64,000 nucleotides of DNA from Brachycybe producta (taxonomy: Eukaryota; Arthropoda; Diplopoda; Playtdesmida; Andrognathidae): contig JAUPFP010000006.1 in the NCBI GenBank assembly GCA_036925085.1, forward strand, positions 3,437,131 to 3,501,130. The letters are read 5' to 3'. Shown piece after piece: positions 42,056 to 64,000 of the stretch (positions within the stretch are counted from its first letter, which is position 1; the number at the start of each line of letters is the position of its first letter). The notes beneath the pieces were generated by a model. That model had not been told where the DNA came from. It saw nothing but the letters and a program-made list of their open reading frames with translations, and did no database searches. The translations under genes and the position numbers were made by a program.

Positions 42056-45000
42056 TCACTTTTTTTCTCTACCGTCCGATCCAACCGTAATCTTTAAGTA
42101 GATCGTATCGTTAATCAAATATTTGTCGCACTCTTCAACTAAAGCATGCGGCGCAAACTTAGAAATTCCAGACCCGACATTAATATCCGTTTGAGGTTTC
42201 TGAAAACTTCCTAACGTATGATTTGGTAGAAAAGCCTCTTTGATGTTCTCTTTGTTGTTCGGATTCTTTTGATCTATAAGAACGATGGTCACCTTACGTT
42301 TGAACGGCCACGAAAGGATATCGTCCCATGGTCCCTTCATTATGCATACAAACACGGACAGATGAGATCCACGCCCATCTCCGTCACCTCCCAGAAATAC
42401 TTTGCTGCACATTTTGTATCCGTAACGATCTGTAAAGAAAGGTTCGCTAACCATGGAAGGATGTCGTCCGGACATGGACTCTGCTTTACGATGACGATAA
42501 TCATTAATCTTCCAAACGAGAACACCATCGTGGTTGTTTATAGACAACGTCTGAATCTCAAGTTCTTGTCTGTCGACTCTTAATTTCAAATCGTGGACCA
42601 TATCTTTAACAAAACGGAATATGATCATAACATTTAACGTAATTTTAAAGCGAAAACGCCTTTTGAAGCTCTGATTATTCTGTCTTTCAGGTGCAAATGA
42701 ATATAAGCTTGAATGGGTTTTAGAAACTAGAAGGGTAGCTCAATTACTTCAAGGTACTTTTCTGCAGAAGAAGAGTTCGAGAGGCGTTTAAGCTATTTTT
42801 ATGTTGATACCTTTCAAAATAAGCTTTTTATTTGAGTTAAGCAGACCTTAGTTTTTACTATTTGTCTATAAAAATGTTCATTTTGAAAGACATCAACATT
42901 AAAATACCTTAAGTTATTGAGCTATCCTTCTAGTTTTTAAAACACTTCCTCGTTTCTCTTAATTTTACTCTTCTGAAAGACAGAATAACCAGAGTTCGAA
43001 AATCAGCTGTTCATAAAAGATCTTTAACTAACGGAAACGAGAACTTCTTTCTTTACCGATTAAGATGTTGTTCTCTTTTAACTCTTGAGCTAGACTTTTC
43101 TGATGTGTTTCGTGTCCATCTGTCGTACTTTCAACGTCGGCAGATCGTTCTTTGTCTTCCGAACTCTCTTTCAGTCCCGTCTCGTGCATCGTGAACAACT
43201 TATGAACGTAAACCTTCGAAAACAGAAAAAAACAACCGTAGGAAAAAATTGTAAGATGACCGAATGATGAAATTTCTCTTTCTTTTACTTGCAAATTAGC
43301 AACTTTTTCCATCAGTCCATCGTTAGTTTCTCTCAATCGATCGAACTGTTTCAATATCTCTTTCATTCCGTGACGAAATGCGTAATTTTCGTTTTGAAGC
43401 AACTAGAAAAAACTAAATCTAGTAAAAAAAAAACTTAAGATTTATATGAAAAACAGAACAAACCAAAATATCTCCTTTCGATTCTTGCATCAAGATATCA
43501 AATTGAAGATTAAGAAACGAATAAAGATCAGCCATCAGTTTGAAATGTTGCAACATATCGCTCTCGTGTTCCTCCAAGTTCTTTCCGTTTCCCTAAAATA
43601 GAGTCAGTCGCTTTAATTCTAGTTTAAAAGTGTAAACGACCCTTTAACCCTGGTTATTTTATCTTTTAGGAGCAAAATGAAGAGAACTTGAAATCGGTTT
43701 AAAAACTAGAACAGTAGCTCAATCACTTACGGGTATTTTCATTTTGATATACTTCAAAATAAAGGATTAAGACATTTTCAATTTCTCTCTTCTTAAACGC
43801 AGAAAACCCAAGTGAAAAATTAAATTAAATGAACATCGATGGCAACTCACTCTAAAGTCGCATCCAAGATGTTCGTATTTACAAGGAAACAATCGAATCT
43901 GACAAACTTTAAGATGTTCGGGAATCTTTCATAAAAAAATAAAGAAATCGATTGAATTTACAACGGGAAAAAAAACTTTTTTTTCTATAACCGAAGAAAA
44001 CCTCGGCTCGTATGATTCCTTCCTTTCCACATCGATTCGGACAATCGACGATCATTTGTTGACAATCACTCAAATGATTCTGTGAAAAAAAAAAACAAAT
44101 AAATAACTAAAGCTATGAAACTGTCGATCATTTTCGACAAGTGGTGTAGAAGAACCTGTTCGAAAGCTAAGACGAAATCTTGTTTACAGAAGTCACAGGT
44201 GACAGTCCGATGCGTGCAAACGAACCTTAGATGATTCTGAAGGTCATTTATACCAACGAGCCGTTTGCAACCCTGTGGACATTTGATCGTAGCTTTGTCA
44301 CAACTTTTTACGTGTCTCTGTTCGAAATAAGACAGAAAAAATGTGACTAAAATTTATTGATATTCTACGTCTTGAATACCAATTTACAAACTAGAAGCGT
44401 AACTGATTCCCGTCACTATATTTTCATGTTGATATCTTGTAAAATAAGCTTTGTATGTCAGTTTTTTTTATCTATAAAAAGTTTATTTTGAAAGATATAA
44501 ACATGAAAACATTATTAAGTGATTTAGCTACCGTTCTAGTTTCTAAAACATTTTCAAATGTGTTGCTACTGAAACCAAGAGCTTATTCAGAAAAATCTGA
44601 ATCCAAAAACGAAAATCTCGAATTTTAAATTGTCCAACAAAAAAATCTATTTTTAAAGATATATGAACAATAAAATTTTTTAAGTGTTTCAATTACTCTT
44701 CTAGTCAATAAATATCTTTCAATTTCTTCTTGACATTGGGTATGTAACGCAAAATAATTATTCTCCTTCATTCGTATATTTTTCAAAAAAAAAAAACTAT
44801 CTTTAAATCAATAACAGAAAACGAATTTCAAACATCAAATAATAACCGTAATATATTGAAGTTTGACAACATCGTTGCATCCGTTAGATCGAAACGGACA
44901 TTGAACATTTAGATTATCAACTTTCTTCCGCATTTTCTCGTTTTCTTTCATCTGAAAAAAAAATGCAAGAAAAGGAGAATGATTAAAAAGAAACGCTTCG

Positions 45001-50409: not shown

Positions 50410-52268
50410 TTAACGAGGCTTTTTGTTTTCTTTCGTATTTTGCGATTTCTTTCTTGTTTTTCCTTGGCTAGTTCCCGGCTGTGAAATGGAACTGTCACCT
50501 CTCGACCAAAGGGCATTACAAACTGGACAAGATTGACGTTCCTTATTTTTGAAAAGACGACTGATGCAGTGCGAATGTAACTTTGCATCACATTGGATAC
50601 AGTTTTTACCCTAAAATACAAAACACGTTTAATTAATACTTAAAAAAAAATAGTTTAAGCTGGTTATCAACTGTAAATGCCGCCGCTCCAACCATAGTTA
50701 ATCTGAGTTCAGGAGCAAAATCGTAACTCAATCACTTACGAGGCTACTTTCACGTTAACATCTTTTAGAATCAACATTTTATATCAGTTTGAAAAAGATC
50801 CAACTTTAAGTGATTGAGCTACCCTTCTCGTTTTTAAAACACTTTTAATTTCTCCTTAGTGTTTTCCTTCTGAATCTGCAGAATAACCACAATTCGAACA
50901 AAAATAAGCTGTCCATAAAATATCTTAAGATCGAAGAAGTTTACTTTGAGAACTAGTTGTTTGCATAGATGACAAGATGTGATGTCGTCCGGAAACATTT
51001 CTTTAATGTATTGAGTAAACTCCATTATGGTCAAAGCACTCAATGAGATTTTTCCACCTTTCTATATAAAAAAAAAGCATTTGTTAAAATTGCCTGAACA
51101 AAAAAGAAACCTTTTAAGTTATAAAAGAACCTCTATGATCCATTTTCCTTCGACCAGACGTTTCAGAAGATTCTGTCCATCGTATTTCGACATCGGTTTA
51201 CTAAGATCATCCATTATGTTCAGAGCTGCGATCGAAGAGATGACGCCGTTATCTGACTGGACAATGACTTCAATCTACAAGCAAACAAGATCATTCGATC
51301 AAATATGGGATTTTCGTTTCGTCGTCGTCTAACCAACCAATTTTTGAAAGAACTCCAGTTCTACGTTGTTGTAGTTCAATGCCGCGAGACTCAAAGGACC
51401 TTCGTAACAGTTGACGATAGCGTAAAACTGAGTTCCGTCTTCTTCGTCAACTCCTTTACGGATTTCCATTCGAAATGGCATTATGGCACGGTTAATTGTT
51501 TGTATCAAGGACACGATGGCTGTACCAAAGTCCTCTTCTTGTCCTTTGAAACACAGCAAAGGTAGAAACAATATTGTAGCGCCCCATATATTCACCTCAC
51601 TGTAAGATGAAGCTAGTGACGTCAGAGGGGTTGACGTACAATTCAGAATTGTCATTCAGTCTGATAGAAAAAAATGATATGAAACGTTTTCAACAGTTTA
51701 AACAAAAGCGTTCTTGCCTTCTTTTGTTATTACACCTTTTTAATGAAGACAAACATGACACAAGCCTAAATTTATTTTGAACCCCTCTGACGTCACAAGC
51801 TTCATCTTTACGGAGAGCAACTGTATCTTTTAATCTTTGATAGTTGCATAGACAATTTTCGTTATAGCTTTAAAATGGCCTTTTTTTTATCACAATTTAA
51901 CACTTGCCACAACGTTACGACAATTTGTCATTAGAATAATGCTCTGGTCAAGTCTACGTCGTTAATTACGGCTCAAGAATTGTTAATACTCAAAAGTGAC
52001 GTCAAATAGCTTTCAATGAATAAATCTAGAAAGGCAATTATGACATTCTTTACAACAATAACGTATCCCTCTAATCACATCATTTCTTTTCTCCCGTAAC
52101 GTACGCAGCGTGTAGTTAACCAGAGCATAATAATAATCATTGATCACCTTCTTCACAACACAATTGGAATAATTCCTTCACTTCGCTTCCATTGCAAATT
52201 TTACGACACATCATTCCCTGAAGAAATTTACGATGTACGTTTCCGTATGCAGTAGTCGTTTGACTCAT
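50410..52268 (-). CDS. NSMCE1: NSMCE1, SMC5/6 complex RING subunit
   Basis: Nse1 RING-type E3 subunit of the SMC5/6 complex in DNA repair and genome maintenance, acting in the nucleus with MAGE-type Nse3. Five exons (52268-52148, 51543-51338, 51274-51131, 51061-50945, 50610-50410) give 262 aa against 266 in human. Conserved blocks: NVHRKFLQGMMCRKICNGSE, LIQTINRAIMPFRMEIRKG, EEDGTQFYAIVNCYEG, NNVELEFFQKLIEVIV, LVEGKWIIEKGGKISLSALT and IMEFTQYIKEMFPDDITSC. The C-terminal variant RING reads CHLCKQLVLKGKNCIQCDAK, LHSHCISRLFKN and CPVCNALW, a C4HC3-type pattern. The Ser/Lys-rich tail (SSISQPGTSQGKTRKK) parallels the human tail. Intron 1 holds two inverted-repeat elements. Head to head with AP5M1. 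Confidence 0.95.
50690..50935. repeat. Family A element, diverged, in NSMCE1 intron 4
   Basis: Right arm near 50806 (GATTGAGCTACCCTTCTCG) and outer arm AATCTGCAGAATAACCACAA; the left side is reduced to ATCGTAACTCAATCACTTAC. Confidence 0.7.
51597..51822. repeat. Inverted-repeat element family B, copy 3 (best preserved)
   Basis: Left arm AAGATGAAGCTAGTGACGTC then AGAGGGGTTGA; right arm GAACCCCTCTGACGTCACAA then GCTTCATCTTT. Arms of about 33 bp with one or two mismatches, each carrying TGACGTCA (51617-51624, 51788-51795). Lies in NSMCE1 intron 1. Confidence 0.9.
51938..52136. repeat. GCTCTGGT-ended inverted repeat in NSMCE1 intron 1
   Basis: AATGCTCTGGTCAAGTCTAC at the left pairs with GTGTAGTTAACCAGAGCATA at the right. 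AAATGCTCTGGTAAAGTCTA also follows the family B copy at 28.33 kb, so the two elements may travel side by side. Confidence 0.6.
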
Positions 52269-56810: not shown

Positions 56811-57101
56811 GTAAATATAAAGAAAAATACTATCTTCAAATGACAGTGACGGCCGCCAGCCGCCAACAATGAATAATATAACTTGTTTAAAATATTATTA
56901 AAAACTAACATTTTCATGTCTAAACACTCTACACTTATTTTAAGCAACATAAACTTAAAATAATTTTTCTCAAAAAAAAAATTTCGTATAAAATTTTTTT
57001 ACAAAGAAAAAAAAAACGCAAATAAATACGTCATTTACAAATACGCCGATATTAAAAAGAACAAGCCGCCGATACCGCCTAAACATCCTTTCTAGCTACA
57101 T

Positions 57102-57300
57102 GCAGTTAGAAATAGGGGAGAACTTCAGTTGGCTCCGCCCTTGTTATGACGACCAGCAACTTCTAATTGGTTGGTTATGTAGTCTGACGTCACATTCTCC
57201 GCCCATTTCAACGTCGAACCACACAACAAACCAAATAGAAGTTGCCGGTCGTCATAACAAGGGCGGAGCCAACTGAAGTTCTCCCCTATTTCTAACTGCC
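57102..57300. repeat. Inverted repeat with roughly 72 bp arms
   Basis: Left arm 57102-57174 and right arm 57228-57300 are complements with about two mismatches (CCAGC/CCGGC and TAATT/TATTT positions). They begin GCAGTTAGAAATAGGGGAGA and contain TTGGCTCCGCCCTTGTTATG. The 53 bp centre holds TGACGTCA (57185-57192). The GGCTCCGCCC core is shared with family E. The high arm identity suggests recent origin. Confidence 0.95.
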
Positions 57301-57888
57301 TGTTCCTTTCTAGCCTCTCAGCAGACGCCACACTTATCCTCGCATCATACCGTTCTTAGTATAATAGATTTTTTTCTCCTTTTATTCTGAGAAATGTAAT
57401 GGTTCGGTTGTATTTGTAATATAAGTGTGGAGGTGTCATATATATATATATACATAAAGGGAACACGTTCTCATTGTGACTGTAATACACGCGAACGCGG
57501 GTTTAATTTTATTGTGAAAAGTGTGTGTGTTTGCATCTGTCATTATATCTTAGACTAAGATTATATTAGCCTCCTCACATCCTACTAAACTAATATGTAC
57601 GCAAAGAAAAACGTGAATGCTAAGAAGAGCTACGACACATGGAGGAGAAGAAAGACAACCGAATGAAAAAACAGACAATAATTACGGACCCCCCCACTGC
57701 AAACCATTTCTTGTGAGTTTTAAAGATGACGTCATTAAATCTTAATCATCTTATATACATGCATATGCATATATATTAGGATTAAAACCCCTTAAGTAAA
57801 CACCCTGTAATTGACCCCTCCCTACTCTCCTTAACCTCCTCCAACTCGAAACAACTAAAAGAAAAACACACAGATTAAAATGAAAGAT

Positions 57889-57911: not shown

Positions 57912-58670
57912 TTCATATATATATTTCTTAAGAATAAACAGAGAAAGAAGGAAGAAATTTTCACTTTCTCTTTTCCTTTCTCTCCTCCTCCACCCACCTT
58001 TGCATTTTACCGATTGACTTCCTTTGGTTGTCATGACAACCGGCGTCACATACATAGCTTGCACGTGGCTCTCTTGTCTTCCGTGCCTGATGACGTTATT
58101 TCTCTCTCTCTCTCTCTCTCTCTCTGCAGTGATGTGTCAGAACTTTTGACACGTCACAGCCTCGGGTGAAGGACGGTCCTCTCGTGTTAATGTACGTGCT
58201 TACTCGTCCTTGCGCGCGTGTCTTGTTAAACACGTCCTAGTGTCAAATAAAGAGAGAAATCATTCATTTTGTACGATTATTTTAGAAAATAAAAATTGTT
58301 GATTCTTTGTATTGTTTTAAAATCCACACACATTTGACTTGACTTCTTCTTCTTAGACAATTTGCAAAATGTCATGTTTAATTGGCTCGTTGTTTCAGGC
58401 ATTGTGTACATTGCGTATAATTTATTCAAACCGTCAAAAGTGTGGATTTTTATACAACGAAATCGATACACACACATTTGGCGATAAACGTGCACGTGCA
58501 CGCGCGATCGAAAAACGGTTATTATCAAAGTTGGTCATTATGGCGGTTATGCCGCGTTTATAGTCGGACATTACACTATATGATGTTTTTTTTCTCAAAC
58601 TCAAAGAAAAGACTGTAAACAATTACAATATGGGCGGGGGCGGGGCAATATCGAAAATAACCGGTTGGGG

Positions 58671-59328
58671 GTCACTACAGCTACCAAAAATAGGGGAACG
58701 AAACGGGGCGCCAAATAAGCGCCAAATTGAACAAACGCCAAACTGAATAAGCGCCAAATGGAACAAACGCCAAACTGAATAACCGCCACATTTTTGGCTT
58801 TTATTCAGTTTGGCGTTTCTTCCATTTGGCGCTTATTCAGTTTGGCGTTTGTTCCATGTGGCGTTAATTCAGTTTGGCGGTTATTCAGGTTTTTTGTAAA
58901 TTCTGATGGTCCAAATATTGTGAGCTTTTATAGACGTCAGACTGTGCAGATTTACAAACAGAACATGCTAACCTAACCTAACCATGTGTTTATCACATTT
59001 TGGCACTTATTCAGTTTGGCGCTTGTTCAGTTTGGCGCTTGTTCAGTTTGGCGTTTGTTCCATTTGGCGTTTATTCAGTTTGGCGTTTGTTCAATTTGGC
59101 GCTTGTTCAATTTGGCGCTTGATCAGCGCCACCAACAAAATATAGATATTTTTTTATTACTTTCTCCTCATTACAGCTAAAAAACAACCCTTTCTCCCTA
59201 ACCTAACCGAACCTTACCGATCCTAACCGAACCTTACCGAACATAATGAAACCTAACTGAACCGAATGTAATCTAAACTAAACGTATTGATAAATAAAAA
59301 GGCCTATATTTTTGGTAGCTGTAGTGAG
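58671..59328. mobile_element. TIR element with TTTGGCGC repeat arrays
   Basis: Perfect 20 bp terminal inverted repeats: CACTACAGCTACCAAAAATA at 58673-58692 and its complement at 59307-59326. Inside, an 18 bp-scale unit (TTTGGCGC/T then TTATTCAG or TTGTTCAA) is arrayed on the minus strand at 58708-58793, on the plus strand at 58796-58890, and again on plus at 59005-59122. TTTGGCGC, or its complement, occurs exactly eight times (58708, 58719, 58751, 58825, 59015, 59031, 59095, 59111), and TTTGGCGT/G variants fill the remainder. A CCTAACCGAACCTTACCGA repeat lies at 59203-59260. No transposase: non-autonomous. The superfamily is not identified, and a clear target duplication was not seen. Confidence 0.85.
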
Positions 59329-60184
59329 CCAGTCCCAAATAACTGACTATAAACACGTCATAATTACACAAAGACGTAACTATGACACAAGTCCACCTGA
59401 TATATTATACCTTTATAATAAGAGAGGGGGGGATTCTTTTTTATGAGTAGAGGGAGAGAGAGAGAAAGGAACCGTGCCATATGACACAGATACAAACATA
59501 TTTGATTTTCAGTATTATGTTTGAAAACAAACAAAAAGACAATAATATCACTACAAATGTGGCTCATAATACAAATAATTGTTAATTATTATTATACTAA
59601 ATGAGAGAGAAATGTATTGAATTTGTCTTTTGACCTTGACCGCAATTGACCATATTGCACTCAAAAAGGAGGAGAAAAAAAAAAAATGAAAAGAAAACGC
59701 GACACAATTTTCACACATTGACGCCTCCTCCTCCACTTCATAGACAGAAATAGAGAGAGAGAGGCTACAAATGGTAGTTGCCATAGCAACCGTTTATGTC
59801 TTGACTTCAATTTTATTATCTCCCTCCCTCTCTCCCTCCATCCGCCATCATAATCATCAATATTGGTCTCCAAACTCATCTATTTATAATGTTTATAATT
59901 ATGATGATTAATAAAGATTTTTTTGTTGTCTGTAATTTACAATCTTCAATCGGGTCATTGACCTTTCTCCCTTGCTCTCTCTCTCTCTCTCTCTCTGTCT
60001 GTCTGTTGTAAATGATGGACTTTAATAATGTCATTCATTATGGTCATTAGGACTCAAGTTCAAATAGTAAGGAAACGTGTGTCACTGGACATGGGAGTCA
60101 AATTTAGAATAAATTAGAATTTGGTTTAAAAAGTAGAAGAGTTAACTCAATCACTAAGGTTCGAATTTTTATGCAAAAATATCA

Positions 60185-60490
60185 AAAGCAATAATGTGGC
60201 CCAAATATGTGGCCCCAAGTGCTAATTGTGAAATAATAATCATCATCATTAGACAGCAACCACAATTATGTTTTTATGTAATCAAAGAAACTGGTTAGAG
60301 GCTAATGTTTGGTTACTTTCAGTTATAAACTAGAAAGTTCTAGCTTCTAACCAGTATTTTTGATTGATATTACTCAAGAATTGTTGTTTGATCTCGAGAA
60401 ACGCTGAATTATTACTTCATAATTATTGATATTTGGGCCACAGATTGAGAAACATTTGCTTTGATATTTTTTTCATAAAAATCCGAGCTC
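60185..60490. repeat. Inverted-repeat element family G, copy 2
   Basis: AATGTGGCCCAAATATGTGG ... GCTAATTGTGAAATAAT at left; CTTCATAATTATTGATATTT ... GAGAAACATTTGCTTTGATA at right, with inner GGTTAGAGGCTAATG / TCTAGCTTCTAACC. Matches 16945-17250. Confidence 0.75.
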
Positions 60491-60499
60491 TATTTGACA

Positions 60500-60680
60500 A
60501 TTACTTAAGAGTATTTTTTTACATTTGATATTTTTTCAAAATAAAACATTTTATAGACAAAAAAATATCTGCTTTTAAAATAAAGTAGGGTCATTTTCAA
60601 AGTAACATAAAGGGCTTATTTTGAAAGAAAAAAAAAATAACACGTAAGTAGGCCCTTGAGGGGTTGGAGGAGGCAAAATT
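60500..60680. repeat. Diverged family A core
   Basis: TTACTTAAGAGTATTTTTTT, TTTTTTCAAAATAAAACATT and GGGCTTATTTTGAAAGAAA. The outer arms are largely lost. Confidence 0.5.
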
Positions 60681-63070: not shown

Positions 63071-64000
63071 ATGAAGGTGGACCAGATGTACATTTGGTAC
63101 ATCTTGCGTTCCATTCTGAGGTTCGTTTTCGTCCTTGCGAACAACCTCTACTGTATTCCAACACATGCCATTTGGATGTTCTTCCTTTTACCACTTCTAC
63201 ATTTCAATCCTGTTCTGTACTGGTACATCGAGGGACCCATCTTTAAGGCCCTTTTGCTTATGGTCGCTGCCTGGGGATGGACAGCCGGTTACAGATGTCA
63301 GTTTTTTCTACTTTTAAACATGTAGCGAGGTTCCGTAATAGATTCCTTTGTTTGTTTTTTTACAGACTACGAAGTCGGTGAAGATGTCTCGTCTTGCTAC
63401 AACAAGGAATGTCTCGTCCTAGCCAATCACCAATCGACAGGAGACGTTCCTTCGCTGATGGCCGCCTTTCAGAATAAAGGGACCGTCGTTGATGACATGA
63501 TGTGGATCATGGATCGCATGTTCAAGTATACGAACTTCGGACTCGTGTCTTGGATTCACGGAGATTTCTTCATTCAGGCCGGAAAGGACACAAGACAGTC
63601 CGAATTGACCCGTCTCAGAGATCACATGTTGGACGTTTACTGTACACGGAAACGGAAGTGGATCGTTCTATTTCCGGAAGGAGGATTCCTACGTAAACGG
63701 AAAGAATCGAGTCAAAGGTTTATGACGAGTCGATCGAATACTTTTTTTTTTTATCTTCCACCCGCCGTTCTCACCGTTTTGGTCATTATTGTCGTTACAG
63801 ATATGCGAAGAAGAACGATCTTCCGGTTCTGGAATACGTAACGATACCTCGTATCGGTGCCTTGCACTCCATCGTAAGCACTCTTCATCCGAATTCGGCA
63901 GAATCGAAATCGCAGCAAGAATCGGATCTTGGCTCCGATCATCAGAAAGTGGAACCGTTGAAGTGGATCATCGACGTTACGATCGGTTATCCGAAAGGAA
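63071..64000 (+). CDS. LPGAT1: LPGAT1, lysophospholipid acyltransferase (5' part, cut by the window)
   Basis: ER membrane acyltransferase that reacylates lysophospholipids (lysophosphatidylglycerol and related substrates in the known family). Three exons are seen (63071-63296, 63366-63717, 63801 onward), coding 259 residues before the window ends. The N-terminal hydrophobic segments ([20 protein letters not shown]) are followed by [12 protein letters not shown], the acyltransferase motif NHQSTGD (H-x4-D), [45 protein letters not shown] (the FPEGG block), [20 protein letters not shown] and [14 protein letters not shown]. The frame stays open upstream of the chosen ATG to an acceptor near 62935 (TTTCAG/TCCCGTTCC), so the true start may be in an earlier exon. 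The ATG used aligns best with the human N-terminus. Confidence 0.93.

Follow-up and report, generated by a model that had tools for sequence, protein, structure and literature searches.

Introduction

Tm1, a Mutator/Foldback element of root-knot nematodes, has a Phantom-like transposase, MITE-like non-autonomous copies and target-site duplications (TSDs) of 8–10 bp, most often 9 bp (PMC3169594; this and the other cited papers are drawn on as excerpts). Tetris, from Drosophila virilis, is a non-autonomous foldback element with internal tandem repeats and TSDs of 8–10 bp; the excerpted text reports three structurally complete copies and states that no autonomous copy was found (PMC4079207). Galileo, a member of the P superfamily, has terminal inverted repeats (TIRs) of 0.5–1.2 kb that are long and internally repetitive, and a P-type transposase whose THAP domain binds several sites in these repetitive ends (PMC3688188).

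Here we describe two elements in the window, the whole 64,000-nt stretch of DNA from Brachycybe producta that was analyzed. The original prediction had described a non-autonomous element carrying an array of E2F-type sites; the label was right, but there are two elements, one nested in the other, rather than one. Taking all the sequence evidence together, we consider it likely that both are non-autonomous cut-and-paste DNA transposons, and that the octamers (TTTGGCGC) lie in an inner, foldback-like element of 16-bp repeats, with the repeats as putative transposase sites. This family offers a useful setting in which to ask why recognition units have multiplied in foldback transposons, a question that the authors of the Galileo study describe as untested for Foldback and Phantom (PMC3688188).

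The structure of the inner element is Foldback-like, as are those of Tm1, Tetris and Galileo. Like Tm1, it has asymmetric 7-bp tips outside tandem repeats (~14 bp in Tm1), which build up inverted ends that vary in length, and its copies are MITE-like and non-autonomous. By contrast with Tm1, its TSDs are 8 bp, its repeats differ, no transposase has been linked to it, and its spacer contains a TTAGG-type tract of a kind that the excerpt on Tm1 does not mention (PMC3169594). Its 16-bp unit is far shorter than TIR-220, the internal repeat of Tetris (PMC4079207). The unit and end sequences were not found in a literature search of open-licence text, repeat databases being outside its scope, and Rfam gave no match at the gathering score. 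Judged against open-licence text only, the inner element is a new family within a structural class already known. With Galileo it shares long inverted ends that are internally repetitive. Galileo TSDs are 7 bp, and its end sequences are other than those of the inner element.

An array element inserted into a second transposon

The coordinates of both elements and their parts are listed in Table 1. Nine exact copies of TTTGGCGC occur over the whole window, and eight of these lie within 411 bp (58708–59118), just as had been described; the mean in 100 dinucleotide-shuffled windows was 1.08, with a maximum of 4. About ten one-base variants had also been claimed; we counted nine, which together with the eight exact copies bring the inner element to 17 matches at ≤1 mismatch. 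The repeats have a period of 16 bp, and not 18 bp as first thought, and alternate in dimers of 32 bp.

Table 1. Positions of the two nested elements and their parts within the window.
Feature	Position	Strand	Remarks
Left 8-bp target duplication of outer element (AAATAACC)	58655..58662		7/8 match with 59337–59344
Outer non-autonomous element (674 bp, insert included)	58663..59336	+	Ends GGTTGGGGGT-CACTACAGCTACC and GGGACTGGCT-CACTACAGCTACC
Left 20-bp inverted repeat	58673..58692	+	Subterminal motif of outer family
Left target duplication of inner element (AACGAAAC)	58697..58704		Site unbroken in other copies of the outer element
Inner foldback-like array element, 429 bp	58705..59133	+	Differs from other copies by rearrangement of the left tip and first unit
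Reverse array of five 16-bp units	58711..58790	-	
First forward array of six 16-bp units	58793..58888	+	
Spacer, 110 bp	58889..58998	+	Conserved core and CTAACC (TTAGG-type) tract
Second forward array of eight 16-bp units	58999..59126	+	
Right 7-bp tip of inner element, CGCCACC	59127..59133	+	Reverse complement GGTGGCG in 23/24 other copies
Right target duplication of inner element (AACAAAAT)	59134..59141		
Right 20-bp inverted repeat of outer element	59307..59326	-	
Right target duplication of outer element (AAATAACT)	59337..59344		

The perfect 20-bp inverted repeats that had been taken as the ends of the array element do exist, inside inverted arms of 24 nt that match at 96% (58669–58692 and 59307–59330), but they belong to the outer element, the ends of which lie farther out. 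Other copies of the outer element likewise extend past the 20-bp repeat, to true ends at GGTTGGGGGT and GGGACTGGCT, and the motif CACTACAGCTACC is repeated near the ends in most copies. The outer ends recur in four copies (L026, L033, L035 and L038), all with 8/8 target duplications. Across 27 rows of 8-bp outer flanks, some of which overlap within one locus, the match was 8/8 in five (the same four copies and L013 at position 1047), 7/8 in two (the window and L032), 6/8 in one, and ≤4/8 in 19; judging by the next bases, the end pattern had halted at an inner motif in many of these 19.

We next compared the insertion point among outer copies. It could be read in 18 rows, of which 15 have the uninterrupted sequence TAGGGG(G/A)AC(A/G)AAAT and three have variants of it; L034 is uninterrupted at the insertion point and diverges just after. 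TTTGGCG units were found in the window row and in none of the other 26. Because the other outer copies show an uninterrupted site and lack TTTGGCG units, we conclude that an outer copy served as the insertion target of the inner element.

A search with the entire element returned the same locus, a copy on contig C158 with the same flanks, and 38 other places (the best 40 of 2000 candidates were scored). Arrays and 20-bp inverted repeats thus lie together both here and in the C158 copy of the locus, as they would if they formed one transposon family. However, in the 38 other places that were scored, the best match to the query begins no earlier than position 28, which excludes the 20-bp repeats, and ends and target duplications are distinct for the two families. 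Together with the 26 array-free outer rows and the 15 of 18 uninterrupted sites, these observations led us to reject a single composite transposon, the probability of which we regard as negligible.

The window copy of the inner element consists of a reverse array, 2 nt, a forward array, a CTAACC-rich spacer and a second forward array, flanked by 8-bp duplications that have diverged to a 6/8 match (AACGAAAC and AACAAAAT). Its inverted arrays of short tandem repeats can fold back, with hairpin arms of 75 nt that are 91% complementary and a 6-nt loop. The predicted single-stranded DNA fold of the head-to-head arrays has an energy of −80.9 kcal/mol, as compared with −25.2 kcal/mol (sd 3.1) for 200 shuffled sequences (z −18), consistent with the long imperfect hairpin that had been anticipated.

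The inner element as a dispersed family

We searched the 295.3-Mb assembly (442 contigs) for the 20-bp repeat, the array and the inner right end at ≤2 mismatches; the figures are hits, not element counts. The 20-bp repeat gave 865+849 matches (reversed control, 0+1), an array 23-mer gave 4049+3872 (reversed control, 0), and a 23-mer from the inner right end gave 436+423 (reversed control, 0). Hence, the supposed ends are far from unique in the genome.

We then compared 24 other copies of the inner element in which both ends are present, leaving out the window locus and its C158 copy; having been selected through matches to the array or the ends, they do not form a random sample. The ends across oriented copies are GGGGCGA-CTGAATAAGCGCC and TTTGGCGCTTGATCAG-CGCCACC, with the tip GGGGCGA exact in 18/24 copies and GGTGGCG in 23/24. 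The 8-bp flanks matched at 8/8 in 11 copies, 7/8 in six and 6/8 in one; the remaining six, at ≤4/8, have no good target duplication. Among 552 mismatched flank pairs that served as a control, a single pair matched at 7/8 and none at 8/8. Duplication lengths of 7, 9 and 10 bp did not fit in 23 copies, except for 7/9 in L045 and the A-rich L047. The TSD length of 8 bp falls within the 8–10 bp of foldback elements. We conclude that copies of the inner element make up a dispersed family in which the ends are defined and 8 bp of target sequence are duplicated.

Copies range in length from 192 to 1654 bp and, among 23 of them, in content from 11 to 46 units. The reverse array precedes the forward array in all 23; a spacer is present in 20, and the other three are pure hairpins. 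The spacer core (67 bp) has a mean pairwise difference of 2.0% over 23 copies, suggesting that this well-bounded, high-copy family is apparently young.

Conservation of the octamer and the question of E2F

The original prediction held that the element disperses E2F-type sites. If so, the octamer should be better conserved than the remainder of the unit, and we therefore measured conservation over 631 units from 27 loci. These were collected at ≤4 mismatches to a consensus in which positions 8, 11, 15 and 16 are degenerate, a scan that somewhat favours the other positions. Position 8, within the octamer, was the least conserved of the 16 (0.61 bit), whereas positions 9–10 and 12–14, at 1.65–1.95 bit, were similar to positions 1–6 (1.67–1.92 bit). 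The E2F consensus TTTSSCGC fits 31% of the units, and TTTGGCGT is commoner than TTTGGCGC (224 versus 193). The octamer is thus not conserved above other positions of the unit, the very outcome that had been named in advance as refuting the idea, and we rejected the E2F octamer as the conserved feature.

Internal units largely switch between C and T at position 8. By contrast, terminal units keep TTTGGCGC in 21/24 copies at the left end and 22/24 at the right, a conservation favoured to some degree by the end patterns, which overlap the terminal unit and allow three substitutions. Since it is near-invariant only beside the termini, the octamer is best read as part of an end recognized by a transposase, in agreement with the fallback that had been offered, namely that the array serves a transposase unrelated to E2F. 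The resemblance of TTTGGCGC to E2F sites is most likely incidental.

We also considered whether host E2F/DP might bind the TTTGGCGC units, with the arrays acting as enhancers or as an E2F sponge. The window copy has its eight exact octamers, each of 23 other copies has 3–16 exact TTTSSCGC units, and plant transposons have been reported to amplify E2F sites, according to the excerpted text of a review (PMC12595863). Our literature search gave no match for a link between E2F and MITEs. Given the low information at position 8, the minority of units that fit the consensus, the excess of TTTGGCGT, the C/T alternation in internal units, and the placement of near-invariant octamers at the termini, we judge it very improbable that the element spreads functional sites of this kind. 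A tempting claim of E2F dispersal, which is unsupported, is thereby replaced by a well-bounded, high-copy foldback family.

Array length and a proposed mechanism

Within the element, the C6 and C158 copies of the locus differ in length by 48 bp, equal to three whole units, and also show an 11-bp indel at the left end; they are otherwise identical from window position 57933 to 60565. These copies most likely represent two haplotypes. At this one locus, therefore, array length has changed without any base substitution.

Such variation in unit number, with the two copies of the locus three units apart, might suggest an ordinary minisatellite or satellite that lies inside a transposon and has no role in movement. 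This explanation sits poorly with dispersed copies that have fixed tips and 8-bp target duplications, and with end units that belong to the inverted ends themselves. It is also hard to reconcile with the modular order of the element: a G-type unit precedes the spacer in 20/20 spacer-bearing copies and succeeds it in 17/20. We consider a passive satellite improbable.

We instead favour a model in which the arrays take part in transposition. A transposase supplied from elsewhere would recognize the 16-bp unit, which is found at both ends in inverted orientation, 7 bp in from the terminus. Arrays in the interior may provide extra binding sites that raise affinity or aid synapsis, for which the binding of several sites by Galileo transposase is a precedent (PMC3688188, as excerpted). 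Growth and shrinkage of the arrays would result from unequal exchange or from slippage during replication, which the hairpin may facilitate, and the match between TTTGGCGC and E2F sites would be a by-product of the recognition unit.

Candidate sources of transposase

Members of the Merlin superfamily share with the inner element a terminal GG and duplications of 8 or 9 bp (PMC8101967, as excerpted). The Merlin transposase domain DDE_Tnp_IS1595 (PF12762), by contrast, had no match in the assembly, which may be incomplete, and we rejected Merlin as a resident source of transposase.

The 8-bp TSD also falls within the 8–11 bp given for MULEs, with 8 bp in Spectre and 8–10 bp in Phantom, and minisatellites are noted in aphid Phantom and in Rehavkus (PMC6446971, as excerpted). 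MULE domains gave 21 matches in the genome, several of them in long frames. No inner or outer end motif was found in the stretches read around MULE matches, which comprise three loci holding 4/21 matches with their own ends partly covered. One further MULE match (C1:4996294) lies ~2.4 kb from an outer element (C1:4993359).

The three loci have features of their own. L060 (1514–5472) and L061 hold near-identical, intact-looking MULE copies (99.4% over 3980 nt) with the left end ACTAGCGTCTGGAGGC and a 21-bp minisatellite of their own that is broken by TTAGG-type spacers. L062 (1–6901) is a palindrome with 3.3-kb arms (99.7%) and two MULE frames in inverted orientation; inverted pairs of MULE matches resembling it also occur on C2 and C38. 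As partners of the inner or outer element, the L060/L061 pair and the L062 palindrome are unsupported by end motifs in the stretches read, which stop short of the L060/L061 right end and of the L062 outer limits.

hAT elements have TIRs that begin CA/TA-x-G, whereas the tips of the inner element begin with GG, although its 8-bp TSD would suit a hAT transposase. hAT domains are common in the genome, with at least 149 matches (the best 150 of 350 candidates were scored). In a comparison of their positions with the first 100 listed inner right ends, a hAT copy with an intact frame (C1:9613897) was located 4 kb away from one such end (C1:9618338). The latter is part of a complete short element flanked by an 8/8 duplication (CAAGCTTG); we regard the proximity as coincidental and rejected this hAT copy as an autonomous partner. 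Two other hAT matches on C1, both short frames, lie near inner elements, the match at 20207789 within <1 kb and that at 19780073 at ~5.5 kb.

Among the Merlin, MULE and hAT matches and stretches read, we found no transposase with the inner ends. Following the reasoning printed for Tetris (PMC4079207, as excerpted), we would name Mutator as a first guess for the superfamily, by analogy and with somewhat less than even confidence.

Telomere-type tracts and other features

TTAGG/CCTAA tracts adjoin or interrupt the arrays or motifs of the inner and outer families and of an intact-looking MULE. We observed a tract of this type (CTAACC) in the spacer of all 17 inner copies inspected, in the outer element of the window and several of its copies, and in the L060 MULE. 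The presence of the tract may conceivably not be due to chance: a process common to these elements, for instance telomere-type healing when the hairpin breaks, or the attraction of a protein that binds telomere repeats, might add or retain it and so make it a working part of the array transposons, an idea that we put forward as a long shot.

Large minisatellites of other kinds, some of them open in several frames, are present in L025, L048, L058 and L063. Within the window, 57125–57355 (−) and 56992–57276 (+) form an inverted pair whose frames share LEIGENFSWLRPCYDD, and part of this pair recurs in L056, beside a reverse-transcriptase-like frame. The window also contains host genes encoding a TRAF-type MATH domain (42056–42628; PF21355), Nse1 (51329–51655; PF07574) and, as one exon, an acyltransferase (63326–63841; PF01553).
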